Positions 22,059-40,183 are shown, numbered from the stretch's first letter. The stretch: DNA of 64,000 bases from Streptomyces sp. I6 (GCA_003725745.1 RHDP01000001.1:3177001-3241000), one strand, 5' to 3'. Made by a program: numbers and translations. Notes: a model not told the origin generated them from the letters alone.

Positions 22059-22502
22059 CTAGGCCAGCGCCACCCAGGCAGCCTTGGTTCCGCAGTTCGT
22101 GACCTGGAAGCCCCACTGTCCCCGGGTCAGCTCGTGCACGATGTGCAGGCCCCGTCCGCGCTCAGTGAGTAGCCCGCTCACTGCCTCTGACGCGGTGGCT
22201 TCCAGCGCGGGCACGGCAGCCAGGTAGAGGTCCGTAGGAAGCAGCGGATTCCCATCGTGGATCTCGCAGATGTATCGCCCGGCAACAGAGCGAAGGTGTA
22301 CCTCGTACGGGCCGCACGCGTGCTCGTGCGCGTTCGCCACGAGCTCCGAGATGGCCAAGACCCCGTCGCTGACGACGTCCCCGGGCAGGCCCAAGTCCTT
22401 GAGGACATGTCGCAGAACCGCGCGGGCTTCGCCGGTCGGGTTGAGGGTGCGGTCGGTCCAGCGGTACACGAGGCCGACAGCGTTGGATGGCGCGCTGGTC
22501 AT
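22059..22502 (-). CDS. RsbW-like ATP-binding protein (HATPase_c)
   Basis: A 147-residue GHKL-fold protein, the size of Streptomyces anti-sigma-factor kinases. The N box is ISELVANAHEHA; the G1 box is altered (IHDGNPLLP); the G2 box is LTERGRGLHIV. ATG at 22502 has an AGGAGG site. Such proteins usually bind a sigma factor or phosphorylate an anti-anti-sigma partner; no partner gene lies next to it. It may link the island to host regulation, but that is inference. Confidence 0.75.
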   Translation of the reverse strand: MTSAPSNAVGLVYRWTDRTLNPTGEARAVLRHVLKDLGLPGDVVSDGVLAISELVANAHEHACGPYEVHLRSVAGRYICEIHDGNPLLPTDLYLAAVPALEATASEAVSGLLTERGRGLHIVHELTRGQWGFQVTNCGTKAAWVALA

Positions 22503-22712
22503 CGGGCGGCAGACCTCCTGTGGGTGACAGCGATGGCCTCCTCCCGGGGCTGCGACGTGGTCGCGGAAGTGCGGCCAGTACGCGGCTGAGAGGCGTACTG
22601 GCCGCACGAACCACCCTGGCTTCGCGCGGCCCCGGGAAGATCGTGGCTCAGGTACCAGCCACGAGGCCGGTCGCGAGTCACGCACTCAACGATGGATGCC
22701 GGTGCGCCTGAT

Positions 22713-22732
22713 GCTCATGGGCGTTTATGAGC
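22713..22732. promoter_or_regulatory. Palindromic site GCTCAT-N8-ATGAGC
   Basis: GCTCATGGGCGTTTATGAGC is a hyphenated palindrome. Its right half GCGTTTATGAGC occurs inverted at 26601-26612. It lies between divergent genes at 22502 and 22830. A shared regulator, perhaps the XRE protein at 25-26.6 kb, is plausible. Confidence 0.45.
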
Positions 22733-22829
22733 GCAGGGGGCGCGAGCGGGCGACAGGGCGCTCCAGCGAGACCGCCGACCCGCCGCCGGCCTTCGCCTGC
22801 GCCCCTCTGATCACTGGGAGTATGGGCGG

Positions 22830-23453
22830 GTGAGTGCTGACGTGTTGGGACGCTGGGTGCCAGATCGTCCCGAGGATGTGGCCGCGGACTTCGCCAAGAC
22901 GGACTTCCCGTGGTGGATCGCCGGTGGCTACGCGATCGAACTCGCGGTCGGCCGCGAGCTGCGCGCACACGGCGACCTCGACGTCCTCGTCCTCCGACGC
23001 GACCAAGCCCTCGTACGTGAACTGCTGGCCGACTGGGACCTGTACGTGGCGGACCCGCCCGGCCAAGGGGAATTGCGACCGTGGCGTCCTGGAGAGGTCC
23101 TACGGCCGCCGCTCCACGACATCTGGTGCCGCCGCACGCCCAAGGCGCCCTGGTCGGTGCAGCTCATGCTGGACGAGGCCGAGGGCACCCAGTGGGTCTC
23201 GCGGCGAGACCCGGCGATCCGCCTCCCGATCGACCAGCTCGGACGCACGACCGAGACAGGCATCCCGTATCTCGCGCCCGAGGTGCAGCTCTTCTACAAG
23301 GCGAAGGCGACCCGGGACAAGGATGAGACCGACTTCGAAGCGGTACTGCCGCTGCTCGACGCTCCGGCGCGCGCCTGGCTGGCAGACGCGATCAAGGTGA
23401 TCGCGCCCACCCATCACTGGCTCCGCCGGCTCCTGCCGGTCAGCCGAACGTGA
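22830..23453 (+). CDS. Nucleotidyltransferase, aminoglycoside adenylyltransferase-like
   Basis: A 207-residue protein of the polymerase-beta superfamily. WWIAGGYAIELAVGRELRAH followed by GDLDVLVLRRD supplies the helix and the D-x-D metal motif (about residues 28-57). The layout resembles aminoglycoside-2''-type adenylyltransferases. Whether it confers resistance cannot be told from sequence. GTG at 22830 follows a GGGCGG site. Its 3' end overlaps the convergent gene by 14 nt. Confidence 0.7.
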   Translation: MSADVLGRWVPDRPEDVAADFAKTDFPWWIAGGYAIELAVGRELRAHGDLDVLVLRRDQALVRELLADWDLYVADPPGQGELRPWRPGEVLRPPLHDIWCRRTPKAPWSVQLMLDEAEGTQWVSRRDPAIRLPIDQLGRTTETGIPYLAPEVQLFYKAKATRDKDETDFEAVLPLLDAPARAWLADAIKVIAPTHHWLRRLLPVSRT

Positions 23454-23898
23454 GCAGCGGAACGTCGTAGAGGTGGGGGTTCCGGGGCCGGGTCATCGTG
23501 GGCGACGTGACTTCCACGATCAGCAGCTCGCTGAGGAACTGGACCTTGGCGCTGAGGAGGTGGCTCGTCCTGCCGTCGGCCGACTGGGCCTTCAGGCCGG
23601 CGGAGACGTGGATGTGCGGGAGTATTCCGCCGGTGGCGGGGTCCTGGGCGAGGGTGCCGGCGCCGAACGCCTCGACGTTGGTTACGTACGTCTTCGCCCA
23701 GACCGGTGCGTCCGGGTCCTCGAGCCTCTCGCAGGCACCCACGATCTCGGCCTCCGCGAAGGCTCCGATGAACGAGGGGATGTAGCCCTGCCGGACGCCG
23801 TTGTCCCGGCAGAAGGTGGACAGCGCCTCGAAGAAGTCCTCCCCGTGGTCGAAGGTGACGCCGAAGGTACGGCCGACGGTCAGCTCATGAGCACGCAT
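23440..23898 (-). CDS. PPC/DUF296-domain protein
   Basis: A 152-residue protein covering one PPC (DUF296) domain. The core includes GEDFFEALSTFCRDNGVRQG, FIGAFAEAEI and the conserved GGILPHIHVSAG, whose histidines bind metal in characterised relatives. These domains occur in DNA-binding plant proteins and as free-standing bacterial proteins of unclear function. It follows the asparaginase gene by 27 nt on the same strand, so the two are probably co-transcribed. Confidence 0.8.
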   Translation of the reverse strand: MRAHELTVGRTFGVTFDHGEDFFEALSTFCRDNGVRQGYIPSFIGAFAEAEIVGACERLEDPDAPVWAKTYVTNVEAFGAGTLAQDPATGGILPHIHVSAGLKAQSADGRTSHLLSAKVQFLSELLIVEVTSPTMTRPRNPHLYDVPLLTFG

Positions 23899-23925
23899 GT
23901 GCGGGTGTCTCCAGATGAGGTGGGA

Positions 23926-24927
23926 TCAGCGGGCGGAGGCGGTGGTGAAGGTCTCGCGGACCGTCGCTCCGTCGGCGCCTTGGGCGAGCAGGGCCTGCAG
24001 CAGGAGCCGCGCCTGGTACGGGCCGAGGTCTCCGGCGCCGATGAGCCCTCGTCCGAGGAGGTCCTTCTCGGAGCCGGCGAAGCCGTACGTGTCCGAGAGG
24101 ACGGGTCCGTTGCCGATGCGGGAGGCGAGGACCACGGGGATGCGGGACGCGAGCTTGGTGAGCCCTTCGACGAGGCGCTCCGGCACGTGGCCGACACCGA
24201 AGGCCGCGACCACGAGCCCGTCGCAGTTGCCGTCCCACAGGTCGAGCAGTGCACCGTCGTCGCCAAGGGTGACGACGTAGAGCCCGACACGCGCCTCACG
24301 GCCGGGGGCGCCGACCAGCGGCCCGCGGGTCGGTAGGCCGCCCGCCATCCGCACCCGGTTCTCCGCGACCCGCGCGATCGGTCCGCACGACGGTGAGGTG
24401 AAGGCGGCTGGGCTGGTGGTGTGGGATTTGCGGACGGTCCGGGCCGAGTGGATCTCGTCGCCGAGTACGACGAGGCAGCCGGCGCCCCTGAGTCCAGGGT
24501 CGGCGGCGGCCAGGACCGCGGCGTAGAGGTTGGCCGGACCGTCGGCGCCGGGGAGGGTGGGGTTGCGCATCGCGCCGGTGACGACGACCGGCTGCTCGTG
24601 GCCGTGGTAGAGGTCGAGGAGGAAGGCGGTCTCCTCGATGGTGTCGGTGCCCTGGGTGATGACGACGCCGTCGACGTCTCCGGTCTCCAGCTCCGCCGTG
24701 ATCGCGGCCGACAGCGCGGTGAGATCCTCGAAGGTCAGGGAGGCGCCGGGCAGGCGTCGGAAGTCCCGCACCTTGAGGCCGATGCCGCTCGTGGCCAGGG
24801 CGGGTACCGCGGCGAGGAGTTCGTGGGCCGAGAGCGCGGGTACGACGCCTCCGGTGGTGGGATCGGTGGTCATGGCGATCGTGCCGCCGAGGGAGAAAAC
24901 CGCCACGTTCCTGACCGACTCCGTCAT
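23926..24927 (-). CDS. L-asparaginase
   Basis: Hydrolyses asparagine to aspartate and ammonia. Both threonine motifs are present: VFSLGGTIAMT near the N-terminus (about T16) and VVITQGTDTIEETAF (about residues 92-106). The C-terminal GNGPVLSDTYGF region is also typical. At 333 residues without a signal peptide it should be cytoplasmic. ATG at 24927 has an AGGGG site. It is cargo of the island with the PPC protein and lies just downstream of an XRE regulator on the same strand. Confidence 0.88.
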   Translation of the reverse strand: MTESVRNVAVFSLGGTIAMTTDPTTGGVVPALSAHELLAAVPALATSGIGLKVRDFRRLPGASLTFEDLTALSAAITAELETGDVDGVVITQGTDTIEETAFLLDLYHGHEQPVVVTGAMRNPTLPGADGPANLYAAVLAAADPGLRGAGCLVVLGDEIHSARTVRKSHTTSPAAFTSPSCGPIARVAENRVRMAGGLPTRGPLVGAPGREARVGLYVVTLGDDGALLDLWDGNCDGLVVAAFGVGHVPERLVEGLTKLASRIPVVLASRIGNGPVLSDTYGFAGSEKDLLGRGLIGAGDLGPYQARLLLQALLAQGADGATVRETFTTASAR

Positions 24928-24986
24928 ATCCCCTGCTTCCCTGTCCGGACGCCGCCGAGCGCTGCCTCGCGAGTGGTTCACGCAGG

Positions 24987-26557
24987 CTATCGGGTCGGCG
25001 CCGTCCGGGTACGCGGAATGATCACCAGCTGTTCGGCCACGAACCGGCAGGCGGCCTCCAGCCCTTCGAGGCCGAGCAACCGGCTGCGCGGCCGGGCCAG
25101 CCGCTCCGTGCCGACGGCCGACAACTGTGCGCACCTGCGACCGAGCCAGGACGTATCGAGGCCGAGGTACTCCGCGGTTGCCGCCAGGCGTTGTCCGGCC
25201 TGCTCAGCCGCCGTGGCCGAGTGGTGGCTGACGTGGCCCGTCACGTCGGCGAACGTCCGTAGGGCGCCCGGCCGCGCGGTGACCGCGAGATGGGACGCCC
25301 CTCGGTCCGTACCCATGAGGCGATCACTGCTCGGCGCCCATGGGAGAGAGCGAAGCCGTCGGTGTGTGCGAAGCCTCCGTCGTCCGTCACCCAGGTGCGG
25401 ATACCGAAGGACTCCATGAGCGCGATGGCGAGGAACATCAGAACGCGCTCGTACGCCGGCGAGGAGGCGACCGCAGCCTCGGGGACGCAGAACCCCCGGC
25501 CGCTGGTACCGCCCGGACGCCTGGGCGCCATTCGTTCCAGGTACTGGTACTTGTGCCGGAAGAACAGCCACGTGGCGGCCTCCTCACCGCGCTGTTCCCT
25601 GGTCCAGAAGACGGGTGCGTCGCCTAGGTCGTCACGGTGGCCCAGGATGTACCGGGCTGCGGTCTCCGAGCCGATCAGCATCCGGGAGACTTCGGTCAGA
25701 CCGAGGTCGGAGGCGAGCGGAGGGCCTGGGGAAGCGGTGAGCGAAGCCAGCGACGTGTGCAGAGGCTGGTCGTCACCGAGCAGTGCCGCCTCGAATCCGG
25801 ACACGGCCCACAAGATGCCGTAAGTCAGGTCGTCCAGTTCATACGCGGCGGGGATGTCGACCGGGTCGGAGGCGGTGGCACGTACGCCGCTCGGTCGGGC
25901 GTCGGTGACGAACTGCCGGACCGCCCCGTCCACCGTGCGATTCGCCACGAGGAGCGCGCGCATCGGCATGGTGCGCCAGGCATCCAGCTCCGGGCGGGAG
26001 TCGAGTCTCAGGCTGTCCCCGAGGAAGGAGGCCGCGGGAAGGGTCAAAACGGGAATCGCCGTCGTAGAGACGGACCGGCCGGCGGGTAACAGAAGCTGGC
26101 CCGGCCCTTCGGGCAGCGCCGCGTACCCACGAGCTCCGGCATCCGCCACCCCCGGTCGGCCCGCGGAGTCCGAAATGTGCGGATCGGCCGTGGGCAGGAG
26201 TCCGAGCAGCTCCTCCGGAACTCCCAGCGCATCGGTCCACTGGACGAACTGCCGTCGGTCACGGATCTGCTTGAGTCCGCGTTCCAGTCTGCTGACCTCG
26301 GCCTGGTCGATGTTGACTATCCGCGCCACGCCGGCCTGGGAGAGGCCCGTGTGCTTTCTGAACAGCTTGACGACGGTGCCGAGTTCCCATGCGGCCACGG
26401 CTCGCCGGACCGTCGGATCACGCCAGAAGGCCGGGTCGGCTCGACGGGCGGCCGGGCCGTCCTGGCACGAGGCGCATCGTGTACCGGCGTTGAAGCGGCT
26501 GAGAAGGGCACCGCAGCGCGTACACCGCCGTTGTCCGCTGTCGACCATGGTCGGCAT
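24987..26557 (-). CDS. Zinc-ribbon XRE regulator with long C-terminal domain (frameshifted)
   Basis: The N-terminus has a two-CxxC zinc ribbon (CTRCGALL and CASC). It is followed by an XRE helix-turn-helix (FRKHTGLSQAGVARIVNIDQ, about residues 65-95) and a 400-residue domain of the kind seen in large Streptomyces XRE regulators. The frame breaks at the C-run 25298-25301: RRAVIASWVRTEG continues, after one added base, as ASHLAVTARPGALRTFADV and ends at 24987. Restored length is about 523 residues. ATG at 26557 or 26548 could be the start. It lies divergent to the biosynthetic operon, with the GCTCATAA repeats between them, so it is a good candidate for the operon's regulator. Confidence 0.75.
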
Positions 26558-26600
26558 TCTGCCTCGCTCTGCGACCACCCGGACACAGTCCGCTCGTGGG

Positions 26601-26620
26601 GCTCATAAACGCTCATAAGC
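26601..26620. promoter_or_regulatory. Tandem decamers GCTCATAAAC GCTCATAAGC
   Basis: Two adjacent 10-bp repeats in the divergent region between the zinc-ribbon XRE gene and the biosynthetic operon. The first 12 bp recur inverted at 22721-22732. Probably operator half-sites. Confidence 0.5.
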
Positions 26621-26706
26621 GTGGGCCTTCGTGGCGGCCATCGTGGTGGAGCACCACCGACCGGAGCCGCGTGCCGCGACTCCCCGGACACGTGAGGATC
26701 CGACCT

Positions 26707-27468
26707 GTGACCTCCTTGACCCTGCCGCCCAGGCCCCCCGATTCGCCGCCGCTGATCCATGCCTGGCAGACGCTGGCGGACGGGCTGCTGACCCAGCGGC
26801 TCCATCTCCATCTCGATGAATGGCGGGCTGCCGTCGCCGAAGAGAAGGCACTGCCGGACGTGCCGAGCGCCGATGTCTCGGTGCTGGCCCAGCGCCCGTC
26901 AACGCTGCCGGCAGGCGACGAGTCCGCGATGGCGCTGCTGGAGGACGCCGGGCTCGGCTTCTGGTGGGAGCTGCCCCAGCGGCACGGGGCGGAGTCGCGG
27001 AACCGGCGCGGGGCACTCCACCGTGCCGCCGACACCGCTGCCCAGAACCTCCTCGCGGAGCAGTCCGGGGCAGCCTGGTGCGGCGCCGTGACCGCCGTCA
27101 GCGCCGCCGCCGCATGGTGGGTGGGCTTCTTCGCGGTCATCCGCCACCGCGGGTTGCACCACATCACGTTGGAGCCGCACCCGGGCACGCTTCATGAGCA
27201 GGCCCTGGGCACCGCGGTGGGCACCGTGGCCCACGGAATGGCCACGCGAGTGATGGAGGCGGCGCTGCGCGGCTCCGTCGACGACCCCACCCTCCGCGCC
27301 GCGTACTGCCGGGCTATCGAGGCCGGCATCTGCGCCGAGCCCGAGCTGCCCCGCCTTATCGACGAGTTGGCAGAGCTCCGGCTGGTGGACCTGGTGTCCA
27401 CCACGGCCCGCTGGCGGGGTCGCTTCACCAAGTACGCCGGCGGCACGGGGGCGGGGCAGGTCGAATGA
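26707..27468 (+). CDS. Hypothetical protein, first gene of the biosynthetic operon
   Basis: About 253 residues from GTG at 26707 (GAGG ribosome site); the reading frame is open upstream but lacks a better start. The protein is soluble and helical, with a cluster of histidines (VIRHRGLHHITLEPHPG) and a C-terminal acidic helix (LPRLIDELAELRLVDLV). I do not recognise a family. It overlaps the following kinase gene by 4 nt, so a role in the same pathway is likely. Confidence 0.6.
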   Translation: MTSLTLPPRPPDSPPLIHAWQTLADGLLTQRLHLHLDEWRAAVAEEKALPDVPSADVSVLAQRPSTLPAGDESAMALLEDAGLGFWWELPQRHGAESRNRRGALHRAADTAAQNLLAEQSGAAWCGAVTAVSAAAAWWVGFFAVIRHRGLHHITLEPHPGTLHEQALGTAVGTVAHGMATRVMEAALRGSVDDPTLRAAYCRAIEAGICAEPELPRLIDELAELRLVDLVSTTARWRGRFTKYAGGTGAGQVE

Positions 27469-28151
27469 ACCACCGCTATCCGTTCATCGTCATCGAGGGA
27501 CTCGACGGCACCGGCAAGACGACGCTGCGCAAGGGTCTGTTCCGGCTCTGGGAGGGGCTCTACGGCGTCACCCCGCTGTGCGCGCTCACCACCAACTTCC
27601 TCGCCTCCGACCAGGCCGCTGCCATCGTCACCGGTAAGTACCAGCCGAACGCCGCTAACCGCGACGCCTACCTGTCCGCGATCGTGGCGGACAAGCGGGC
27701 CACGCTGGATCGCCTCGTGCTCCCCCAGCGAGCGGCCCGGCCGGTGATCGCGGATCGCTGGCTCCTCAGCGAGCTGGCCTTCTTCGCCGTGAAGCACGGC
27801 ATGAGGGCATCGGAGACGTACGGAACTCTGACCGCGCAGCTCACTGTGGCCCCGGATCTCACGCTCGTCCTGGACCTGGAGACCGACACCTCGATGAGCC
27901 GGGCGCAGGCCCGACAGGGTGACGCCGTCCGGGCCGACTGGGACGTGCACGACGTCCAGAGCCGGGTTCGCGAGACCTACGAGGCCGTGGTCTCGAAACC
28001 CGACGAGTTCCCGCTCCTCGGCAACGTGGTCCGCCTGGACGCCCGCCGGCCCAGGTCCGAAGTACTGCTCGCCGCCTGGGACGTACTGCGCGAACGGCAG
28101 CTGGTGCCGTTGCGCGCCGCCCGTACGGAAGGAGGAGAGACCCATGGCTGA
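27465..28151 (+). CDS. Thymidylate-kinase-like P-loop kinase
   Basis: A 228-residue member of the dTMP kinase fold: Walker A VIEGLDGTGKTT (K18), a DRW motif (PVIADRWLLSELAFF) and a lid region SRAQARQGD. Housekeeping tmk is expected elsewhere, so this copy probably phosphorylates a pathway nucleotide or another small substrate. It overlaps the upstream gene (ATGA) and the next gene by 8 nt. Confidence 0.75.
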   Translation: MNHRYPFIVIEGLDGTGKTTLRKGLFRLWEGLYGVTPLCALTTNFLASDQAAAIVTGKYQPNAANRDAYLSAIVADKRATLDRLVLPQRAARPVIADRWLLSELAFFAVKHGMRASETYGTLTAQLTVAPDLTLVLDLETDTSMSRAQARQGDAVRADWDVHDVQSRVRETYEAVVSKPDEFPLLGNVVRLDARRPRSEVLLAAWDVLRERQLVPLRAARTEGGETHG

Positions 28152-29013
28152 CGGCACGAAGGCGATGCATCTGCGTGAGGCCCTCGACGACAGCGAGCGG
28201 AAGCACCCGCTCCTGGCGATCGGTGCGGTGAACGCACTCGCCGCGCACGTCGCGGCGGAAGCGGGCTTCGACGCCCTGTGGGTAAGCGGCCTGGAGGTGT
28301 CCGCGGCCTCCGGACTGCCGGACGCCAACGTCCTGGGCCCCCGGGACCTGTCCGACGTCGTCGCCTCTCTCGGCCGTGTCACCGAACTGCCCGTCATCGT
28401 GGACATCGACAACGCAGGCGGCTCGGGGCGCACGGCGGAGCGGTTCGCGTCCGACCTGATGCGCGCCGGAGCCGCGGCGGTGTGTGTCGAGGACAGCGCA
28501 TACCCGAAGTGCAACAGCTTCGCGGCCCACCGGTCCCAGACCCTCGCCGACCGGGACCTGCTGTGCGAGCAGGTGGGGCGCATACGGAAGCTCGCCGGTG
28601 ACGGCCTCGTGGTCGTGGCCCGCACCGAGGCCCTGATCGCCGGCGAGGACATGGCCACGGCGATCACCCGCGCCGAAGCGTACGCCGAGGCCGGAGCGGA
28701 TACGATCCTCATCCACTCCAAGGACGCGACCGGTGATCAGGCGCGGGCCATCGGGCGAGCATGGAGCCACAGCGTGCCGCTGGTCAGCGTGCCCACGGCG
28801 TTCCCCGACCTGAGCGCCGCCGAACTCGGCGAGGCCGGCTTCAGCCTCTGCATCTACGCGAACCAGCTCAGCCGTGCCGCCCTCGCGGGTATGCGCACCG
28901 CCGCCCGTCAGTTCCGGCGCGGAGGGAGTTTCCGCTCCACCGTCGCGGGGTCCCTCGCGGAGGTCGGCGACCTGATGCGCGTCGGCGAACCGGAGGCACT
29001 GTCGTGCCTCTGA
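28144..29013 (+). CDS. PEP mutase / isocitrate lyase superfamily enzyme
   Basis: A 289-residue TIM-barrel protein strongly resembling PEP mutase and phosphonopyruvate hydrolase: GFDALWVSGLEVSAASGLPD, the Asp-pair strand VIVDIDNAGG and the motif EDSAYPKCNSF (from E116). In true PEP mutases this motif reads EDKxxPKxNS; here S118 replaces the lysine. PEP mutase makes the C-P bond of phosphonates; other relatives cleave or form C-C bonds next to carboxylates. The changed motif means the reaction cannot be assigned. ATG at 28144 follows GGAGGAG. Confidence 0.8.
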   Translation: MADGTKAMHLREALDDSERKHPLLAIGAVNALAAHVAAEAGFDALWVSGLEVSAASGLPDANVLGPRDLSDVVASLGRVTELPVIVDIDNAGGSGRTAERFASDLMRAGAAAVCVEDSAYPKCNSFAAHRSQTLADRDLLCEQVGRIRKLAGDGLVVVARTEALIAGEDMATAITRAEAYAEAGADTILIHSKDATGDQARAIGRAWSHSVPLVSVPTAFPDLSAAELGEAGFSLCIYANQLSRAALAGMRTAARQFRRGGSFRSTVAGSLAEVGDLMRVGEPEALSCL

Positions 29014-29474
29014 CGCCCGAGCTGCCTCGGATCAGTGTCTCCGTGAAGGCGGCGATCGTGCGCGACGACGCCGTCCTCCTGCTGTCGTACGACGACGAGA
29101 CCGGGTTCCACTACAACCTCCCCGGCGGCAAGGCCCAGGTCGGCGAGGACCTGCGCCAAGCCGTGAACCGCAAGGTCGCACAGGAGACCGGCCTCCAGGT
29201 CGTGGCCCGGCGTCTGCTCTGCGTCGTCGAGTACGTCCCCGAGTCGTGGCAGGGCGAGTTCGGGGACGTACAGAAGGTTCAGTTCAACTTCCTCGCCGAG
29301 CAGGTGGACGACGCCGAGCCGCACATGCCGGAACCGCCGGACCCCATCCAGGTGGGCTTCGAGTGGGTTCCGCTGGAACGTCTTGGCGACGTGTACCTGT
29401 TACCCCGGATCAACCGCCCGCTGTCGGCGGCATTGAGCGGAGAGCTCGCCGACCCCTTCGTGGACAGGTGGTGA
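29004..29474 (+). CDS. Nudix-fold protein with degenerate Nudix box
   Basis: A 156-residue Nudix-like protein. The box reads GGKAQVGEDLRQAVNRKVAQ followed by ETGL, so the consensus REuxEE becomes RKVAQE: two of the acidic metal ligands are replaced. Hydrolase activity may be lost or altered, and a binding role is possible. GTG at 29004 overlaps the previous gene by 10 nt; the stop overlaps the next start as GTGA. Confidence 0.75.
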   Translation: MPLTPELPRISVSVKAAIVRDDAVLLLSYDDETGFHYNLPGGKAQVGEDLRQAVNRKVAQETGLQVVARRLLCVVEYVPESWQGEFGDVQKVQFNFLAEQVDDAEPHMPEPPDPIQVGFEWVPLERLGDVYLLPRINRPLSAALSGELADPFVDRW

Positions 29475-30144
29475 CCTTCATGGATCCGAAGCTGAAGGAT
29501 CTGCGAGAGTGGCTGCTGCGGGAGCACACCGGGACAGTCTGTGCCGACCGACTCCGCGTGATCGCCGACGAGCTCGCCGACATGACCGCCCGCGGTCTGT
29601 CGGGGCCGTGGTGGAACTCGGCTGCTACAGAGGCGCGATGGCCCTCTGGATCCGTAGCGTGCTCGAATCGCTGGGCGACCACGACCGCGAGATCCACGTC
29701 TACGACTCCTTCCAGGGCATGCCCGCGCCCGGCGCCGAGGACTCGGACCACCTGGCGACGGGCGAGCTCCGTTCATCCCCGGACGACGTGCGCGCCACGC
29801 ACGCGGCCTGGGGCAGGCCGGCACCGGTCATCCATCCGGGATGGTTCGACGAGACCCTTCCCGAGGAGCTGCCCGACGAGATCGCGTTCGCCTACCTGGA
29901 CGGCGACTTCTACGACTCGACCCTCACGGGACTCACGCACTGCGTCACCCGCCTGGTGCCGACGGGCGTGCTGCTCGTCGACGACTACGCGGACACGGCG
30001 GTCAATCCACGGGCCTGGGACGGGCTCCCGGGGGTGAAGCGCGCCTGTGACGCGTACTTCGGCGCGCCATCGCCCGTGACCGTCGTCGTCGGCGAGGGTG
30101 ATCTCGCCTTCGGCCGGTACGAGAAGCCGGGGACCCTCGGATGA
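29471..30144 (+). CDS. TylF/macrocin-type O-methyltransferase (frameshifted)
   Basis: SAM-dependent methyltransferase of the TylF-like family. N-terminal helices (MDPKLKDLREWLLREHTG) lead to the SAM motif VVELGCYRGAMALW, then HVYDSFQGMPAP and the metal-site motif AYLDGDFYDST, with VLLVDDYAD later. The frame breaks at the G-run 29602-29605; one extra G joins MTARGLSG to AVVELGCYRG, giving about 224 residues. The start is GTG at 29471 (overlapping the Nudix stop) or ATG at 29480. Relatives O-methylate sugar or hydroxyl groups of natural products. Confidence 0.8.
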
Positions 30145-31064
30145 GCGCAGTCCTCGTGGTGCGCGGAGCGGCGGATGCGGGTGCGATCCGCCGCGCGCTG
30201 CCCGGCGTCCTCGTGCACGATTTACTCGACCTGAACTGGCCTCTGCCAGCCGACACGGCCGTGGTCGTCCTGCGTTCCGGTGTCCGACTCGGCGAGCGGG
30301 AGCTCGACGCACTGCCCCGCCTGCGGCACGTCGTACGGACCGGCTCCGGCATCGACCACATCGACGTAAGCGCCCTCCAACGCCGTGGCATCACACTGCA
30401 CCGCAACGCCGAGGCCGGCGCGGGCGCCGTGGGAGAGTGGGTCCTCGCCGCTGCCCTCGCCCTGACCCGGCGGATCCCCTTGGGGCAGCACGCGCTGCTG
30501 CTCGGCCGGCACGAGAAGCATGCGTGCATGGGAGCACCACTCGGCACCCTGACCGCAGGAATCTGGGGCGCGGGCCCGGTGGGGCTGGCCGCCGAGTGGG
30601 CCCTCGCTCCCTACGTGGACCGCACGGCCTTCGCCGCGTGGCCGTCGAACTCTCCCGGTCTGCGTGAGCTGTCGCCGACAGCCCTCATGGAGCAGTCGCA
30701 GGTACATGTGATCGCTCTGCCGTTGCGTCCCACGACCGAACAGCTCATCGGCGAGGACTTCCTCGCACGTGTCACTCCGCAGCGGCCTCTGCTGATCTGC
30801 GCCGGGCGGCTGGAGACCCTCGACGTCGCGGCCTGCCTGCGGGCGCTGGCGGACGGGAGGCTCTCGGGCCTCGCCCTCGACCCGGTCGAGCGGGAGCACC
30901 TGCCGCTCCTCACCGGCTCCACGACGCCGCTCAACCTCCTGGCCTCGCCCCACATCGGCGCCCAGCGCTCCGACGTGCGCGGCGCACTCGACCGATGGGC
31001 CGTCGATCTCCTCAAGGAGATCACCGCCGCCGACAAGATCCTGATCGAAGGAGGGCACCGGTGA
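30141..31064 (+). CDS. D-2-hydroxyacid dehydrogenase family protein
   Basis: A 307-residue NAD(P)-dependent oxidoreductase like phosphoglycerate dehydrogenase. The dinucleotide motif is IWGAGPVGLAAEWAL. The catalytic triad can be placed as Arg in ICAGRLETLDV, Glu in DPVEREHLP and His in ASPHIGAQRSD. It would interconvert a 2-oxoacid and a 2-hydroxyacid, which suits a product of the PEP-mutase-like enzyme. Overlaps its neighbours by 4 nt on both sides. Confidence 0.85.
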   Translation: MSAVLVVRGAADAGAIRRALPGVLVHDLLDLNWPLPADTAVVVLRSGVRLGERELDALPRLRHVVRTGSGIDHIDVSALQRRGITLHRNAEAGAGAVGEWVLAAALALTRRIPLGQHALLLGRHEKHACMGAPLGTLTAGIWGAGPVGLAAEWALAPYVDRTAFAAWPSNSPGLRELSPTALMEQSQVHVIALPLRPTTEQLIGEDFLARVTPQRPLLICAGRLETLDVAACLRALADGRLSGLALDPVEREHLPLLTGSTTPLNLLASPHIGAQRSDVRGALDRWAVDLLKEITAADKILIEGGHR

Positions 31065-31927
31065 ACCCATCGGCGCGACTGCGCCGGGAGATCGCCGACA
31101 GAGTCGCCCAGTCTCTGCTCGCGTCCGGCGAGGCTCGTGAGGTCTGGCTGGAGGGAGCCCTCGCCTGCGGCTTCGCCCACGCGGCGAGCGACATCGACCT
31201 GCGTGGCATCGTGGACGGCACCCTTCCGGTGTGGGAGTCCCGCATCGTGGACGGCGTCCGTGTCGACCTCCAGGCGACGGCGCCGCAGCGGGCGGAGGAA
31301 CTCCGTCACCTGTTCCGCTCCTTCGACGTCCGCCGCGACGACCTCAGCTCCTTCCGCCGGGTACGCGCCTCGATGCACGACCTCATGTGCCTGCGCACCG
31401 CTCTCTCCTACGGCTCCGGACGCTGGAATCCGGTGCTCGCTCCCGAGGAGCGCCAGGGCTACCGACGGTGGGCGGTCGCCGACCAGGCCGAAGTGGCGGC
31501 CAGTCTCGCCGAGGACCTGACCGGCCTCGTCGAGGACGGCCTGGCCGAATCGGTCGGCGTCGTATGCCGGAAGCTGGAGACCTGTCTCGCCGCGCTCGAC
31601 TGCGCGGCGGCCGGCCATCCCGTCCTGGGCGACAAGTGGCTGCCGCTGCTCACCGGCGCGCCGCCCCGCCCGTCGATCAACCCGGCTCGCGCGGAGACGT
31701 GGGAGTGGTTCCGTCCGGTTCAGCGACGCGTGGCCAGAGCGCTCCTGGGCTGCTGGCCCGTCGACGACCCGCTGCAGAAGCCTCCCAGTCTGGGCGCCCC
31801 AGACGCCGGCTGGCTGCCCCAGCGGTACGCCGACGGGTGGTTCCTTCGCCGCGGCGACGTCCACATCCCCATCACCGGCGGACAGCTTCTCGGATGGCTG
31901 TCCGCGGTCTCCACCGATGGCGCGTAG
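31061..31927 (+). CDS. Nucleotidyltransferase-like protein
   Basis: A 288-residue protein with a polymerase-beta-type motif: WLEGALACGFAHAASDIDLR gives the helix and the D-x-D pair, and VDLQATAP may supply the third acid. The C-terminal 150 residues are helical. It could attach a nucleotide to a pathway intermediate, in keeping with the kinase and Nudix neighbours. The start GTG overlaps the previous stop (GTGA). Confidence 0.65.
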   Translation: MNPSARLRREIADRVAQSLLASGEAREVWLEGALACGFAHAASDIDLRGIVDGTLPVWESRIVDGVRVDLQATAPQRAEELRHLFRSFDVRRDDLSSFRRVRASMHDLMCLRTALSYGSGRWNPVLAPEERQGYRRWAVADQAEVAASLAEDLTGLVEDGLAESVGVVCRKLETCLAALDCAAAGHPVLGDKWLPLLTGAPPRPSINPARAETWEWFRPVQRRVARALLGCWPVDDPLQKPPSLGAPDAGWLPQRYADGWFLRRGDVHIPITGGQLLGWLSAVSTDGA

Positions 31928-31957
31928 ACCGCGCCTCTCCTCCTCGGGAGGCTTCTG

Positions 31958-33844
31958 ATGCCCGTCACCCGCACCGCCCCCACGGACCTGGAGAGTCTCT
32001 ACGCCCCGTTGTCGAACACCGGGCCGGACACGGCGGTCTCCGTCATCCTCAAGCTCCGGGGAGAGACCTGCGACATCGACTGCCTGTACTGCTTCGAGAA
32101 GCGCAAGGAGGCACCGGGCGGCGCCCGGATCAACGCGGCACAGGTCCACCGCCTCGGTTCGATCTTCTCCGGGCGCCCGCTCAGCATCGAACTCCACGGC
32201 GGGGAGCCCCTGACCGCCGGCCGGGAGCGGATCGCGGAGATCCTGGACGCGCTCGCCGCACAGCCGAACGTCCTCCGCGTGAGCCTCCAGACCAACGGCC
32301 TCCGGCTCGACGACGCGTGGCTGGACCTGTTCGAGCGGCACTGCCCGGAGCTGGAGATCGGCATCTCCCTCGACGGGGACGCGCTTGGGAACTCGTGGCG
32401 CGTCGGGTACGACGGCCGCCCCACGTACCCCCGAGTGGTCGAAGCCCTGGAGCTCCTCGGCCGTCGGGAACGCAACGTCGGCGTCATCTGCGCCGTCACC
32501 CCGTACGTCCTCGGCCGGGCCTCCGAGGTCATGGAGCACCTCGCCTCCTTTCCCGCCGTGACGACGGTCAGCCTGGTGCCGTGTTTCGACGCGGCGGTCA
32601 CCCGGTCGACCATGGTGGTCGGATCCCGTGCGCCGACCAGTCGGGCACTCCAGCGACGAGCCATCGGCCCCACCGGCCCGGCCTGGGCCGTCACGCCTCG
32701 GCAGTACGCCGACTTCGTGTTGGAGGCCGCCCACCACTGGGTCACCGACGGCCTGTTCCGCCGCGTCAAGCTGGAGCCCGTCGTCTCCGTCATCCGCCGT
32801 CTGAAGGGTCTGCAGACGCGTTCCTGCCACTTCTCCGACTTGAAGTGCGACCACGTCCTCACCCTCTATCCCGACGACCGCCTGGGAAGCTGTGACGAGC
32901 TGCCCTGGCCGCAGGCTGGCCTCGCCGCGCTCGGCGACATACACGCCGAGGCGGACGTGGCCAGCGCCCAGGGCGGCTCTCCCTTGCTTCAGCAGGCACG
33001 CTCCTTGGTCACGAAGTGCACGACCTGCGACTACCGCGATTCCTGCGGCGCAGGCTGCCCGGCGGTCCGCCTCCGCTTCGCCGCCGCGGGCGACGAAGAC
33101 GCGTACTGCGACCACCGCATGCGCCTGATCGACGGCGTCGCCGCCCTCCTCGCCCAGCCGAGTTTCCCGCCCGGCGCCTCCTGTTCCCGGCTTCGCTGGC
33201 GTCCCGTCCGCCCCAATGACATGCAGCACGTCGCGGCGTTCATGGCCCGCTGGGACGACCCGACTGTGCCCCGCAAGCCCGCACGCCTGCAGGTCAGCGC
33301 CCAGGGCAACATCAACACGGTCGGTCTCCCCGGCGTGCACGAGGCAGACGATCTCGACCCCCACCATCCTCAGTGGTACGGGGGCATCGAACCCGGCATC
33401 CGCCCGGTCGTCGACGCACTCACCGCAGGCTGGAACGCCATCACCTATGACAGCTGCCAAGGCCACGCGTACGCCGACCTCCCCGGAGCCGAGCCCCGCT
33501 TCCTCTCGGTCGGCATCCTGCCGCGCGACCGCGACGAATACGCGCGTACGGCAGCGCGCCTGTGCCGGGCCGCCGGCCGAGCCGAGCCCTCTCTGCCCGG
33601 GACCTGTTCCCTGGTCCTCGGCCGCAGCGAGCTCACCTGCCGCACCACCGGCCGGGCGTACCCGACGCTCGACCTCCATCTCGTACCCGCTGCTGGCACC
33701 GCACCTGCCGAGTACTTCGAGGACCTCGCCCAGGCCGTGCACGTCCTCACAGAGGCCCTGGCCGAGGCCGCCTCTGCCCCGCCGTCCACCCGCTGTGCCT
33801 GCGCGCCCGAAGCCGCCCGCTCCAGCGATGGAGGCGAGCAGTGA
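31958..33844 (+). CDS. Radical SAM/SPASM enzyme with extra C-terminal domain
   Basis: A 628-residue radical SAM protein. The [4Fe-4S] site is CDIDCLYCF (C38, C42, C45). GGEPL and LQTNGLRLDD follow as SAM-binding strands. A SPASM-type cysteine cluster for auxiliary iron-sulfur centres lies around residues 285-370 (RSCHFSDLKCDHV, then KCTTCDYRDSCGAGCPAV). Such enzymes modify peptide side chains (thioethers, C-C crosslinks, epimers). A further 240 residues containing WNAITYDSCQGHAYADL are not part of the usual fold. GGGAGG precedes ATG at 31958. Likely the main maturase of the operon. Confidence 0.88.
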   Translation: MPVTRTAPTDLESLYAPLSNTGPDTAVSVILKLRGETCDIDCLYCFEKRKEAPGGARINAAQVHRLGSIFSGRPLSIELHGGEPLTAGRERIAEILDALAAQPNVLRVSLQTNGLRLDDAWLDLFERHCPELEIGISLDGDALGNSWRVGYDGRPTYPRVVEALELLGRRERNVGVICAVTPYVLGRASEVMEHLASFPAVTTVSLVPCFDAAVTRSTMVVGSRAPTSRALQRRAIGPTGPAWAVTPRQYADFVLEAAHHWVTDGLFRRVKLEPVVSVIRRLKGLQTRSCHFSDLKCDHVLTLYPDDRLGSCDELPWPQAGLAALGDIHAEADVASAQGGSPLLQQARSLVTKCTTCDYRDSCGAGCPAVRLRFAAAGDEDAYCDHRMRLIDGVAALLAQPSFPPGASCSRLRWRPVRPNDMQHVAAFMARWDDPTVPRKPARLQVSAQGNINTVGLPGVHEADDLDPHHPQWYGGIEPGIRPVVDALTAGWNAITYDSCQGHAYADLPGAEPRFLSVGILPRDRDEYARTAARLCRAAGRAEPSLPGTCSLVLGRSELTCRTTGRAYPTLDLHLVPAAGTAPAEYFEDLAQAVHVLTEALAEAASAPPSTRCACAPEAARSSDGGEQ

Positions 33845-34558
33845 TCCACATCGCCGAGACGCTGTCCATCCGGACCGTGGAGAGCTTCCTCAAACCGAAC
33901 GAGATCGATCGCCTCAACGACGTCATGGACGGCGCGCTCGGCTCCTTCGGGCGCGACCGGTACGGCGCGGGCCGCCATACGACCATCCACGAGATCCCCG
34001 GTCGCTCCCCTCCGAGGCGCAGGACGTCTACGAGCCGGCCGGCCGGATCGAGATGACCGACATCCCGTACGAGGCGACCACCCTCCTCGACCAAGCCCTC
34101 AAGCTCCACATGGCCGCCGTCACGCGCACCCTGCCTTCGGTCACCGGCCACCGGCCATGGATCTACCTCGAATACGGCGCCGGCCAGTACATCACCCCGC
34201 ATGCGGACGGCATCGCCCCCGATCCCCTGACCCGTCCCCGGCAGATCGCGGCCGCGACGGTCACGCTCACCGACCTCCAGGACACCGGCGGGGCGTTCTA
34301 TGTGGAGACCACGGGCAGCGACGCCGTCTGGACCGCAGACGAGGCACCGACTGAGTCGGGTTACGCCCACGGGATGCGCTTCGCACACGACGGGACGGAC
34401 ATGTCCTCCCCTGGTTCCGCACCATGCCCCGCACCCGATGGAGCGTCACACCTGCACCCGGCACGCTCGTGGTCTTCGGCAGCCAGCTCATTCACGGCAC
34501 AGAACCTGTCCGTGCCGGCCGCGTCCGCAAGTTCCTCACGCTCTTCGTCTCCGAGTAG
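33841..34558 (+). CDS. 2-oxoglutarate/Fe(II) oxygenase (two frameshifts)
   Basis: Non-haem iron hydroxylase of the prolyl-hydroxylase-like group. The iron ligands are H-x-D in GQYITPHADGIAPDP and the distal His in FGSQLIHGTEPV; an Arg 10 residues later (GRVRKFLTLFVSE) would bind 2-oxoglutarate. The protein is spread over three frames: breaks at 33996-34010 and at 34408-34411 are each repaired by one extra C, giving about 239 residues. GTG at 33841 overlaps the radical SAM stop. It probably hydroxylates the modified peptide or a building block. Confidence 0.8.
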
Positions 34559-34647
34559 GAAGCTTCGCCATCATGACCGGACCCCGCGGCCCGCCTCACG
34601 GCCACCCGCCCCCAACCCACGGCCCCGACCAGACGAGAGAGCGAGCA

Positions 34648-34809
34648 GTGGCAGAAGACAAGACGTTCGACGAGTTCCTGGAGGCAGTCGCGTCCCTGCG
34701 CGACAGCGACCCTGTGCGCACCACCGCGCACACCTCCAACGCGGCCACCGAGACCTGGCTGGCCACCACGGTGCAGCCCAACGCCGCTGAGCCCACCACC
34801 GAGACCTGA
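34648..34809 (+). CDS. Candidate RiPP precursor peptide
   Basis: From GTG at 34648 the product has 53 residues. An acidic amphipathic leader-like half (KTFDEFLEAVASLRDSD) is followed by a Thr/Asn/His-rich half (VRTTAHTSNAATETWLATTV) and a QPNAAEPTTET tail. It lies between three oxygen/radical enzymes and is followed at once by a hairpin, the arrangement expected of a highly expressed precursor. An in-frame ATG at 34573 would add a Pro/His-rich 25-residue extension without family character. No homologue is known to me; the precursor role is inferred from size, composition and place. Confidence 0.6.
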   Translation: MAEDKTFDEFLEAVASLRDSDPVRTTAHTSNAATETWLATTVQPNAAEPTTET

Positions 34810-34815
34810 CCCGCC

Positions 34816-34847
34816 ACGGGGCCGGGCCCGTCCCGGTCCGGCCCCGT
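34816..34847 (+). terminator. Hairpin between precursor and HExxH gene
   Basis: ACGGGGCCGG (34816-34825) pairs with CCGGCCCCGT (34838-34847) around a 12-nt loop, 7 nt after the precursor stop. It may act as a partial terminator that raises precursor over downstream expression. Confidence 0.65.
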
Positions 34848-34865
34848 TCCACCCCGGAGTCCCAG

Positions 34866-35756
34866 ATGAGCGCTCTCTCCCCGGAAGCCCTGGTCACCGT
34901 CGGCGGAATCGCCGACCACCAGCGCCTCCGGACCAGCCGTATCGCCTCCGTACTCGGCAACCGCCTCGGCTCGTCCGCCCTCGACTACGCCGTCGCCCAC
35001 CACCTCCTCGAAGGCGCCGAACATGCCGTACGCACCCGGGACGCGGACCGCCTTACCTGGTACCGGAATAGGACGGTGCGAGACCTGACCCACCTGTCGG
35101 TCGACCCGCACCTCGTGCTCAGCCCACGCCCCGCGGATCTGCTGTGCTCGGAGATCTCCGAAACCGCGTACTACCTCGTCGGCCCGGACACCGCCCCTGC
35201 CACGCCCGAGGCCCAGGTGATCATGCGTGCCGCCCTCGCCTCCGCCACCGAGCACGGCTTCAGCAGGCTGCTCACCCAGCACGCCCCCGTCATCTGCTTG
35301 CTCAAGCGCCGCCGGCTCGACGAGACCCTCCACAGCTGGGCCCTCACCCGCCTCCCTGGCACCGTCTTCACCGACTACACCGCCCACCCCGAGGTCCTGG
35401 CCCGCGACCTGATCCACGAGGCCGCCCACAACTGGCTCAACGACGCCCTGGCCGCGAACAATGTTCGCCTCCCCGCCGACGTCACCTTCTTCTCCCCCTG
35501 GCGAGGCACGCGGCGTTCCGTCTTCGGCTTTCTCCACGCGTGCTGGGCCTTCTCCCTCACCGTGCTGTACGTACGGGAGGCGCGGCGCAGCGCCACGGAC
35601 GCCGTCGTACCCTTCCTCGACACCCACCTGCGCCAGCAGGCGGTCCAGTTCGCTGCCGCTACCGAATGCTTGGAGCAGGCCCTCTCCTACGTGCCCGCAA
35701 ACGAAATCCGTGAACGCATCGGCCGCGCAGTCGGCAAGGTCGTGGGTCCCGCGTAG
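34866..35756 (+). CDS. HExxH-motif protein (putative peptide hydroxylase)
   Basis: A 296-residue protein with HEAAH (H184-H188) in DLIHEAAHNWLNDALAAN and a C-terminal helical region (DTHLRQQAVQFAAATECLEQ). The helical N-terminus includes DYAVAHHLLEGAEHAVR. Proteins of this layout occur beside RiPP genes, and some have been described as 2-oxoglutarate-dependent peptide beta-hydroxylases rather than proteases. ATG at 34866 has a GGAG site. It closes the operon. The 191 bp after it hold no gene. Confidence 0.75.
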   Translation: MSALSPEALVTVGGIADHQRLRTSRIASVLGNRLGSSALDYAVAHHLLEGAEHAVRTRDADRLTWYRNRTVRDLTHLSVDPHLVLSPRPADLLCSEISETAYYLVGPDTAPATPEAQVIMRAALASATEHGFSRLLTQHAPVICLLKRRRLDETLHSWALTRLPGTVFTDYTAHPEVLARDLIHEAAHNWLNDALAANNVRLPADVTFFSPWRGTRRSVFGFLHACWAFSLTVLYVREARRSATDAVVPFLDTHLRQQAVQFAAATECLEQALSYVPANEIRERIGRAVGKVVGPA

Positions 35757-37118: not shown

Positions 37119-37823
37119 CTACTCGTACGTCGCCTTCCATCGTTCCCGGTGCCGTCGATCCCCTTGTCCCAGGCCGTTCACCGTGCCGAGCGACAGCAGC
37201 GAGGCCCCGTTGTTCCACAGCCCGAGGTGATCACGATGGACGGCGAGAACGTCGTTCTCCGTAGCGAAATTCTCAGCCGGCCTGCTGAAGTACGTGGTGG
37301 CCACGAAGATCGCCACGTCGACCTTGAAATGGACCCTCGCGCCGAGCAGGTCACGAACCTCGCGGCTGGGGATCTTGCGCTTGGGCGTGTACCGCTTGCA
37401 CTGGATCACCATGCTCCGCCCATCGGGAAGAGTCCCCAGGACGTCAGCACCGTTGTCGTGAGAGCCGCCGACCCTCCGAACATCCGTGCACCCATCCCGT
37501 CGGCAGAGGTCCACGACGAAGTCCTCGAACTCCCTCCCCGTCATCACGTCGACCTCAGCAAGCGTCCGACGCCCGGCCTTAACAGCCTCGTCATGCCGCC
37601 ACTGCCGATCACCGCCCCGGATGAATTGATCGGTACGCCACAACCACCACACACTGCCAGCAACGCCTCCGAGAACGAGCGCACCGACGAGATAGGGCCA
37701 GATCACGCTCCACAAGGTGACCAACACGACGAGGCCGAGGCCCCCGGCGGTAGCGCCGACCTTGAACCGCTGCTGGCGCCGCTTGCGCGCAGCCGATACC
37801 CGCCGCTTCCGTGCCGCCGCCAT
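37119..37823 (-). CDS. Membrane-anchored Mrr-like restriction endonuclease
   Basis: A 234-residue protein. A basic N-terminus (KRRVSAARKRRQQRFK) is followed by two hydrophobic segments (GLGLVVLVTLWSVIWPYLVG and ALVLGGVAGSVWWLW). The C-terminal nuclease domain has MTGREFEDFVVDLCRRDGC, the metal-site Asp in GADVLGTLPDG and QCKRY (Q-x-K), typical of the Mrr branch of PD-(D/E)xK enzymes that attack modified or foreign DNA. ATG at 37823 is used. It follows the ubiquitin-like operon on the same strand and probably belongs to the same defence region. Confidence 0.82.
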   Translation of the reverse strand: MAAARKRRVSAARKRRQQRFKVGATAGGLGLVVLVTLWSVIWPYLVGALVLGGVAGSVWWLWRTDQFIRGGDRQWRHDEAVKAGRRTLAEVDVMTGREFEDFVVDLCRRDGCTDVRRVGGSHDNGADVLGTLPDGRSMVIQCKRYTPKRKIPSREVRDLLGARVHFKVDVAIFVATTYFSRPAENFATENDVLAVHRDHLGLWNNGASLLSLGTVNGLGQGDRRHRERWKATYE

Positions 37824-39354: not shown

Positions 39355-39722
39355 CGGCGGATCCTTTCGGCCTTGAGTGCCGCGCTGTCGATGGCCCCGT
39401 CACGACGGCTGGAACGGCGCGAAATCTGCAGTGCGGGCTGGCCGCGCCAGCCCGTCGACTGGACTGCCGGTCCATGGGACTGCCCGTCGGTACGGGAAAG
39501 AGGCCCGACGTAGTGGGGATAGACGTCGGCGTCCGGGTAGGCGGCGCTGATCTGGAACCCCAGCCAGGTGGCAGCCGGAGCGTAGGAGGGACCGACCGAC
39601 ACGTCCTCGACGGTGACAAACACACCGCCATTGCCGTCCGGGACCACCTCGACCGGATGACCGGCGAACTGGGCCCGGATGGCCTCGACCGCTTCGGTGA
39701 TCGCCGAAGCGAGGGCGCTCAC
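39336..39722 (-). CDS. E2-like (Prok-E2) protein without cysteine
   Basis: A 128-residue protein between the ubiquitin-like and E1 genes. VEVVPDGNGGVFVTVEDVSV and ATWLGFQISAAYPDADVYPH (strand-rich, then PYVGP-like P-x-Y region) resemble the UBC fold of prokaryotic E2 family E proteins, which share this gene context. There is no cysteine anywhere in the chain, so it cannot form the usual E2 thioester. It overlaps the Ubl gene by 4 nt and the E1 gene by 19 nt. Confidence 0.7.
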   Translation of the reverse strand: MSALASAITEAVEAIRAQFAGHPVEVVPDGNGGVFVTVEDVSVGPSYAPAATWLGFQISAAYPDADVYPHYVGPLSRTDGQSHGPAVQSTGWRGQPALQISRRSSRRDGAIDSAALKAERIRRWLADQ

Positions 39723-40003: not shown

Positions 40004-40079
40004 CGCGTTCCTCTTTTCTGGTGGTACCGATGCCGCCTGGTCTCAGGCGGGCACGCCTGCGTTTCGAGATCTTCGCATC

Positions 40080-40139: not shown

Positions 40140-40183
40140 TGATAGAAAGGAGGCAACACCCCCACACCAAGAGGAGGAGGGCG

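Follow-up and report, generated by a model that had tools for sequence, protein, structure and literature searches.

A conserved actinobacterial operon that joins a radical SAM/HExxH peptide core to a PEP-mutase-family enzyme with an altered motif

The combination of a radical S-adenosylmethionine (SAM) enzyme with an alpha-ketoglutarate (aKG)-HExxH protein is known from the ChlBH-type system, reportedly that of Morishita et al. 2024. An excerpt of PMC12636437 describes a radical SAM-HExxH fusion that forms a cyclophane and beta-hydroxylates Asp and His, hydroxylation of these residues depending on the preinstalled cyclophane, and a further parallel to radical SAM/HExxH systems was drawn from part of PMC13060819. 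Here we analyse an operon of eleven same-strand (+) genes, A to K, at 26707-35756 of a 64,000-nucleotide stretch of Streptomyces sp. I6 (GCA_003725745.1 RHDP01000001.1:3177001-3241000), hereafter the window (Table 1). Like the ChlBH-type ribosomally synthesized and post-translationally modified peptide (RiPP) systems, it sets a radical SAM enzyme (H) and an aKG-HExxH enzyme (K) beside a short precursor (J), but the two enzymes, fused there, are separate genes here and share the operon with a 2-oxoglutarate (2OG)-Fe(II) oxygenase (I) and another seven protein genes; the core of the precursor reads T-x-H-[T/S]-S-x6-W. From sequence comparison we read A-K, with a probability of roughly 0.6, as one biosynthetic pathway for a RiPP, in which a radical SAM plus aKG-HExxH core is served by interchangeable decorating modules.

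Three other described systems come close to parts of the operon. H matches the FxsB cyclophane maturase model TIGR04269 and, weakly, the HxsB/HxsC models of His-Xaa-Ser maturases, and the core contains H-[T/S]-S; yet H scores below the TIGR04269 cut-off (95 versus 370 bits) and has a C-terminal extension of its own, and the accessory genes of those systems differ from A-K. G resembles ANT(4')/kanamycin nucleotidyltransferases in predicted fold, with a template-modelling (TM) score of only 0.42-0.47, and has GA where GS is usual before the SDxD aspartates. The Valinophos-type pathway (phosphoenolpyruvate (PEP) mutase plus VlpB, the latter a phosphonopyruvate reductase in an excerpt of PMC11867202) also has a PEP-mutase-family enzyme beside a D-2-hydroxyacid dehydrogenase, as C and F are here; C, however, lacks the lysine of PEP mutase (PepM), the operon is tied to a ribosomal peptide, and family scans of A-K recognised neither a decarboxylase nor an ATP-grasp ligase. 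No published description of the cluster was found in the open-licence literature, judged by titles and the start of abstracts, with subscription papers mostly outside the search.

Conservation of the operon and its precursor peptide

Of 295 same-genus genomes, 22, counting that of the window, had a close relative of H, as did one of 396 genomes drawn phylum-wide, the window itself; A was rarer in the genus (14 of 295, namely the window, 12 full clusters and a remnant in genome G087) and phylum-wide was found only in the window and G087 (2 of 396). Twenty loci (designated, like those below, by L numbers) were fetched from the 22 H-positive genomes, leaving out the window's own and that of G028. 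With matches below 40 bits omitted except for I and J, 12 carried A-K in order, seven lacked C, E, F and G but had H, I, J and K, and one was distant. A scan of 84,980 species provided 79 named loci (from the best 80 of 121 relatives, with strains overlapping the same-genus set), which we sorted into 28 of type 1 (the window's arrangement), 25 of type 2, three of type 3, four of type 4, three of partial type 2 and 16 distant or unassigned. In tblastn all eleven genes were matched in order in 27 of the 79; the 28th type-1 locus lies on a contig that ends before J and K. Type-1 hosts comprise Streptomyces, Kitasatospora phosalacinea, Actinomadura harenae, two Micromonospora and a metagenome-assembled genome of a groundwater actinomycete, and C-like matches (E<=1e-4) were confined, among the 79, to the 28 type-1 loci. 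With its order kept in 27 of 79 loci, the A-K arrangement is, on this comparison, not a matter of chance.

The first-pass annotation had described same-strand genes with seven overlaps, which open reading frame (ORF) coordinates and the sequence around E bear out for A/B, B/C, C/D, D/E, E/F, F/G and H/I. It had joined a nucleotide- and PEP-mutase-like half to a RiPP half and raised the question of whether the two co-occur elsewhere; they do, as the whole A-K order in other genomes, in 12 of the 20 fetched same-genus loci and in the 27 named loci, and thus form one conserved unit. Two observations had been named that would count against the pairing, halves that always occur apart and the lack of a conserved peptide gene beside the radical SAM gene. 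We saw neither, because a small peptide is kept beside the radical SAM gene and the halves are conserved together. What did not hold is the symmetry of the two: an intact first half without the second was not found among the 14 A-positive genomes (13 with the full cluster, one with the remnant), but the second half (radical SAM, 2OG, peptide and HExxH genes) stood without the first in 25 of the 79 loci, where it has other partners.

J combines a leader rich in FL..V..LR with the core given above. By tblastn, a J with TAHTS was found in the window and in 19 of 20 fetched loci, the one missed being L045; L117, the locus of the L045 strain, has TAHSS. Trp at +11 was present in 50 of 50 distinct peptides, which had been selected by TAH[T/S][S/A], so that only this Trp is independent of the selection. 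Less biased evidence for J comes from tblastn and from two peptides in which Met or Arg replaces the Ala, TMHSS in Kitasatospora cathayae (L161) and TRHTS in L124, both of which keep T, H, [T/S], S and W, the latter at the same distance. NCBI has annotated a small ORF for the precursor in both plasmid-borne clusters, those of K. cathayae and Streptomyces clavifer. A short conserved precursor gene thus stands beside modifying enzymes, as in RiPPs, and by its sequence J is a real gene conserved across four arrangements, with the spacing of T, H, [T/S], S and W fixed.

Table 1. Features of the operon and its left flank (window coordinates).
Feature	Position	Strand	Description	Basis
A	26707..27468	+	orphan, mostly helical protein	without family match
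B	27465..28151	+	P-loop kinase of the dTMP-kinase kind	PF02223
C	28144..29013	+	PEP-mutase-family enzyme, separate clade	PF13714, motifs, tree
D	29004..29474	+	Nudix-fold protein, altered Nudix box	PF00293
E	29471..30144	+	TylF-like O-methyltransferase, frameshifted in assembly	PF05711
F	30141..31064	+	D-2-hydroxyacid dehydrogenase	PF02826
G	31061..31927	+	ANT/kanamycin-nucleotidyltransferase-like protein	predicted fold, PF01909 of one homologue
H	31958..33844	+	radical SAM peptide maturase, SPASM-like	PF04055, CxxxCxxC
I	33841..34558	+	2OG-Fe(II) oxygenase, frameshifted in assembly	PF13640 in intact relative
J	34648..34809	+	53-residue precursor peptide, core T-A-H-T-S-x6-W	tblastn, motif
K	34866..35756	+	aKG-HExxH-type peptide beta-hydroxylase	TIGR04267
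Regulator	25241..26578	-	divergent helix-turn-helix (HTH) regulator, 3' part apparently frameshifted	PF13560
Lineage-specific neighbours	22059..25134		HATPase, aminoglycoside-2''-adenylyltransferase-like, PCC-domain protein, asparaginase	Pfam

Gene content of the alternative arrangements

Type 2 has the order Nudix-H-X-I-B-kinase-J-K in Streptomyces, Nocardiopsis, Nocardia, Actinomadura, Actinospica and Micromonospora; its Nudix box, read in L035 and L038, is canonical there, and its kinase is protein-kinase-like (a protein kinase in L035). Beyond types 1 and 2, L079 and L097 (type 3) and L117 (type 4) were the loci examined gene by gene. Type 3 (L079, L082, L097) keeps H, J and K. In L079 these are joined by PIG-L, aminotransferase-like, A-like, methyltransferase, nucleotidyltransferase, 2-hydroxyacid dehydrogenase and two Nudix genes, with no PEP mutase found within its 19.8 kb, and in L097 TylF-like, 2OG and CPT-like kinase genes lie beside H on the opposite strand. 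Type 4 (L116-L119, all Streptomyces) has the TAHSS precursor, and the L117 neighbourhood contains uridine diphosphate (UDP)-sugar, glycosyltransferase and two APH-like genes. There the precursor (2409-2564) is also paired with a gene for a protein resembling formyltransferases of 5-aminoimidazole-4-carboxamide ribonucleotide (AICAR) (5618-6772; PRK07106, 236 bits versus a cut-off of 415), which puts a protein of purine-formyltransferase type near a peptide cluster.

The K. cathayae plasmid cluster runs A-B-C-D-F-G-H-J-K, with E and I not found within 19.7 kb, and adjoins a major facilitator superfamily (MFS) transporter gene. NCBI labels in this copy include dTMP kinase and isocitrate lyase/PEP mutase family protein, in the S. 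clavifer copy protein kinase, and in both radical SAM protein and HEXXH motif-containing putative peptide modification protein. In three proteobacterial loci, L122, L125 and L126 (Paracoccus, Thalassobaculum and Azospirillum), H, Nudix, K and B-like matches were kept, and a search with the motif pattern recovered no precursor.

That the RiPP half pairs with other partners in 25 of the 79 loci suggests that A-G are an exchangeable module on top of a peptide core. The representatives of the other types that we examined have phospho- or nucleotidyl-transferases of their own and of different fold (the protein kinase of L035, the nucleotidyltransferase of L079, the CPT-like kinase of L097 and the two APH-like proteins of L117), which suggests that capping of a hydroxyl may be a need common to the arrangements.

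Motif changes in C and D and the family labels of the other enzymes

C belongs to the PEP mutase/isocitrate lyase superfamily (PF13714, 153.5 bits versus a gathering threshold of 31.5, 9.4e-45) and among solved structures it is closest to PEP mutases and phosphonopyruvate hydrolase. It scored 205.7 bits with TIGR02320, for which the PepM cut-off is 319.55; the test carries little weight, since the majority of EDK-type proteins in the genus also fall short of the cut-off, which was exceeded in only three of 121 same-genus genomes. The motif used in screening for PepM is given as EDKX5NS in an excerpt of PMC12723261. C has EDSxYPKxNS, with Ser for Lys, in 28 of 28 type-1 loci and in the plasmid copy, so that the phosphonate or hydroxyacid unit proposed in the first-pass annotation stays unproven; EDKX5NS was present in 16 of the 17 comparison rows of our tree set, the 17th being a weak match without the motif. 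A second difference concerns the loop that reads DxD[T/S/A]G[Y/F]G in 14 of 17 comparison rows: in 11 of 11 C rows it is replaced by DxDNAGG or a near variant. The tree sets the C sequences together on one side of a branch (support 84/100) with a long stem (1.78), their exact place being unsure because three comparison rows, the weak match included, are long branches. Even so, 13 of 13 sequences share D87, D89, R160, H191, the PK lysine and the Asn-Ser of the PepM motif, residues with roles in metal or substrate binding. With most of the active site kept, C may work like a PEP mutase; with the motif failing, it cannot be filed as one.

An alternative that we hold to be plausible, if somewhat short of even odds, is that C has lost phosphonomutase activity and works as a C-C lyase, a hydrolase or a condensing enzyme that produces or uses up a 2-keto acid, so that no phosphonate would be made here. 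The uniform Lys-to-Ser change, the rebuilt loop and the long stem all speak for it, and the residues conserved in 13 of 13 sequences speak against it, as does the second half of the motif, which is N-S in C where C-C lyases have CGH.

A second PepM-like gene, at G000:C1:2667976-2668782 (L140) in the host genome, has the classical EDKLFPKMNS and scores 305.1 bits with TIGR02320; given this motif, the strain may also make an ordinary phosphonate.

D matched PF00293 (45.1 bits versus 21.1) but departs from the Nudix box, GX5EX7REUXEEXGU: it has RKV for REU, the first glutamate of REU being replaced by Lys in 27 and by Thr in one of the 28 type-1 loci. The motif changes in C and D point to a new activity or substrate, to judge by these residues.

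Most other labels proposed at first pass (dTMP-kinase-like, TylF, hydroxyacid dehydrogenase, radical SAM, HExxH), like those of PEP mutase and Nudix family, were backed by family scans. B reached PF02223 (45.1 bits versus 27) with a P-loop GLDGTGKTT, fell below the dTMP kinase model TIGR00041 (67.8 versus 83.25), and had B-like matches in loci of types 1, 2, 3 and 4, at 31-34% identity in types 3 and 4. E matched PF05711 through its 3' fragment (92.7 bits versus 23, 2.9e-26; 106.5 in the intact L026) and F matched PF02826 (65 bits versus 25.1, 7.2e-18), its R223, E250 and H271, invariant in eight of eight sequences, making up the Arg-Glu-His triad of D-2-hydroxyacid dehydrogenases. H exceeded PF04055 (34.4 bits versus 29.5) and has an invariant CxxxCxxC (C38/C42/C45, 11 of 11), additional invariant cysteines downstream and a C-terminal extension of about 220 residues; it stayed below the cut-off of the sulfatase maturase model TIGR03942 (121.3 bits, 4.8e-35, versus 349.45). 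K exceeded TIGR04267 (53.5 bits versus 40), with HExxH and H224 invariant in 12 of 12.

Two labels were borne out in part. For I, PF13640 (cut-off 27) was reached in the intact relative L026 (28.8) but not in the intact L162 (23.4), and scored 14.9 in the window fragment; H121, D123, H219 and R228 are invariant in five of five relatives and make up the HxD...H...R motif of 2OG-Fe(II) oxygenases. G had no Pfam nucleotidyltransferase match of its own, nor did its L161 homologue, whereas the L044 homologue matched PF01909 (26.5 versus 21) and the best PDB matches of the G model, which has a predicted local distance difference test (pLDDT) score of 87.9, were ANT(4') nucleotidyltransferases (E 1.1e-4); S43-D44-x-D46 is invariant in 12 sequences. 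A had no match in family scans and no PDB fold match at E<=0.001 (model pLDDT 74.6). Its near-invariant tail, KYxGGTGAGQVE in 12 aligned sequences including that of the window, aligned with the A-like protein of L079 over 41 tail columns (probability 95.7%, E 8.8e-9), and A is perhaps a partner or scaffold protein. The type-2 gene X was tried as a homologue of A and rejected, with a profile comparison probability of 0.5%.

Proposed route, its alternatives and the genomic setting

In the route that we propose, H would first cross-link or otherwise functionalise the core, tentatively by a three-residue His-to-Ser cyclophane on H-[T/S]-S, resembling those of its FxsB and His-Xaa-Ser relatives, for which we put the odds a little below even. 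K would then beta-hydroxylate one residue of the core, perhaps its His, a step about as likely to be right as wrong. I might add a second oxidation that the TylF-like E may methylate, a pairing suggested by the joint absence of E and I from the K. cathayae plasmid cluster and the adjacency of their relatives in L097, and B and G might phosphorylate or nucleotidylate a hydroxyl, as product chemistry or as self-protection; both of these steps are possible and somewhat less probable than the cyclophane. More doubtful is a last step, in which C and F would turn PEP into a three-carbon 2-hydroxy acid that decorates the peptide, the product being phosphonolactate if C still makes a C-P bond; part of PMC12871164 describes a PEP mutase with a 2-hydroxyacid dehydrogenase as a known partnership leading to phosphonolactate. 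A and the altered D would be, perhaps, binding or scaffold partners. At its fullest, this would be a new class of RiPP, with a near-fixed core matured by radical SAM and aKG-HExxH enzymes and carrying exchangeable caps. The type-1 cap would be a C3 unit derived from PEP, and might be the first case of a phosphonate on a ribosomal peptide; the enzymes making it would belong to a PEP-mutase clade whose rebuilt active site leads motif-based screens to discard them. Taken whole, we consider this full version unlikely.

Several observations weigh against the route or parts of it. The cyclophane is a guess, because H lies far below the FxsB cut-off (E 4.7e-27 at 95 bits), and of the two precursor genes of L079 (10964-11116 and 11212-11355), one TAHTA and the other TAHTS, one has Ala in place of the Ser. 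Type 2 has I without E, so an I-then-E step is not general. The hydroxyacid dehydrogenase, Nudix, A-like and nucleotidyltransferase relatives of L079 and the TylF relative of L097 occur without a PEP mutase, and such enzymes therefore need not act on a PEP-derived unit. C itself falls short of the PepM cut-off and lacks the motif lysine, as described above. No peptidase, exporter or peptide-joining ligase was recognised among A-K in family scans, in which A had no assignment; a nucleotide-activated unit joined to the peptide, as suggested at first pass, is hypothetical. Finally, because E and I are frameshifted in this assembly, the pathway may be incomplete in this genome, unless these are assembly errors.

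Decay of the cluster in this strain, with the frameshifts real, is a possibility to be taken seriously, although we lean towards the other explanation. In comparison with six relatives, single-base frameshifts, unremarked in the first-pass annotation, affect E once (near 29.6 kb), I twice (near 34.0 and 34.4 kb) and the 3' part of the divergent HTH regulator once; in the fetched relatives E and I are single open frames (12 of 12 and 19 of 19). Private indels not divisible by three, counted with coding and non-coding positions pooled and some of those of the window at an alignment edge or between genes, numbered nine in the window and two to eight in each of the six relatives, a control that does not set the window sharply apart. 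Breakage is also seen among relatives: H of L034 is interrupted by a 1.67-kb insertion (about 11881-13550 of the oriented locus) that looks to us like an IS110-type transposase gene, F, H and K are split in L032, and the G087 remnant consists of A, B and a truncated C; genes in two pieces occur in further type-1 loci (L065, L072, L073). On the other side, the four in-gene changes all fall within or next to homopolymers of three to five bases, and the host genome (7.05 Mb in two contigs) has a completeness rating of 87.42%, as expected for long-read consensus error.

Instead of being an antibiotic, the modified peptide might serve inside the cell as a cofactor or signal, much like mycofactocin or pyrroloquinoline quinone (PQQ), with lineage-specific caps. 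Antimicrobial RiPP cores are usually variable; this core is near-invariant from Streptomyces to Nocardia and Micromonospora, and the want of a recognised exporter or peptidase among A-K would fit such a role. We nevertheless think it unlikely, in that the patchy spread of the radical SAM gene (see above) and the plasmid-borne clusters suit an accessory metabolite better, and the MFS gene beside the K. cathayae cluster and the aminoglycoside-adenylyltransferase-like gene in the window's block could serve export or immunity.

It is improbable that a free-standing small molecule, either a phosphonate or a 2-hydroxy acid, is the product of C, F and G and that the RiPP genes are mere neighbours. 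PEP mutase with a 2-hydroxyacid dehydrogenase is a known phosphonate route (PMC12871164, in part), and the occurrence of the second half without the first would agree with it; against it stand the 13 of 14 A-positive genomes with the full cluster (the 14th a remnant), the overlaps through the first half, the A-K order fixed across several families and the failure of C at the PepM motif. A nucleotide-based defence system, with a viperin-like radical SAM enzyme, nucleotide kinase, Nudix protein and nucleotidyltransferase, is very improbable, for the weak pVip matches of H (E 3.1e-9 and 3.4e-6) and the candidate-system model matches of B (3.7e-14) and D (5.7e-7) are outweighed by the far better fit of H to peptide maturases (4.8e-35 with TIGR03942), its downstream invariant cysteines and, in type 1-4 loci with long enough contigs, its constant company of a conserved peptide and an aKG-HExxH enzyme.

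At the DNA level, the operon lies in a block shared from about 22020-22062 to near 35756 with seven of the 12 type-1 loci, and from 22811 with L026. To its right there is no further match over 1.3-5.8 kb in seven of eight relatives and over ~4 kb for L034; the left edge is less certain, only ~0.6 kb (1.35 kb in L026) having been compared. The HTH regulator is 87-95% identical and in place in eight close relatives, partial in L033 and without a match shown in L042-L044; it probably controls the operon. No DNA match to the lineage-specific neighbours was seen in L033 and L042-L044. Within the block, the asparaginase and PCC-domain genes (23926-25134 and 23440-23898) stay beside the operon in the eight block-sharing relatives for no evident reason. 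In 37119-40003 (-), right of the operon, a multiubiquitin gene (39722-40003) is grouped with genes for a ThiF/E1-like protein (38032-39354 scanned; matches to PADLOC E1-E2 models) and for a small protein that matched no family; together they correspond to a bacterial ubiquitin-like conjugation set, and an Mrr-type endonuclease gene (37119-37856) adjoins them. An HTH-looking ORF (39764-40570; labelled from the ORF list only) directly precedes the gene of an IrrE-like M78 peptidase-domain protein (40567-41154, +).

The operon joins ribosomal peptides and PEP-mutase chemistry in an order fixed across several actinobacterial families. The C clade is excluded by the EDKX5NS screen, and any phosphonates that it might make would be missed. 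If a C-P bond made by C does end on the peptide, the outcome would be categorically new. The four arrangements on one core offer a direct genetic way to tell enzymes that act on the core from those that add caps.

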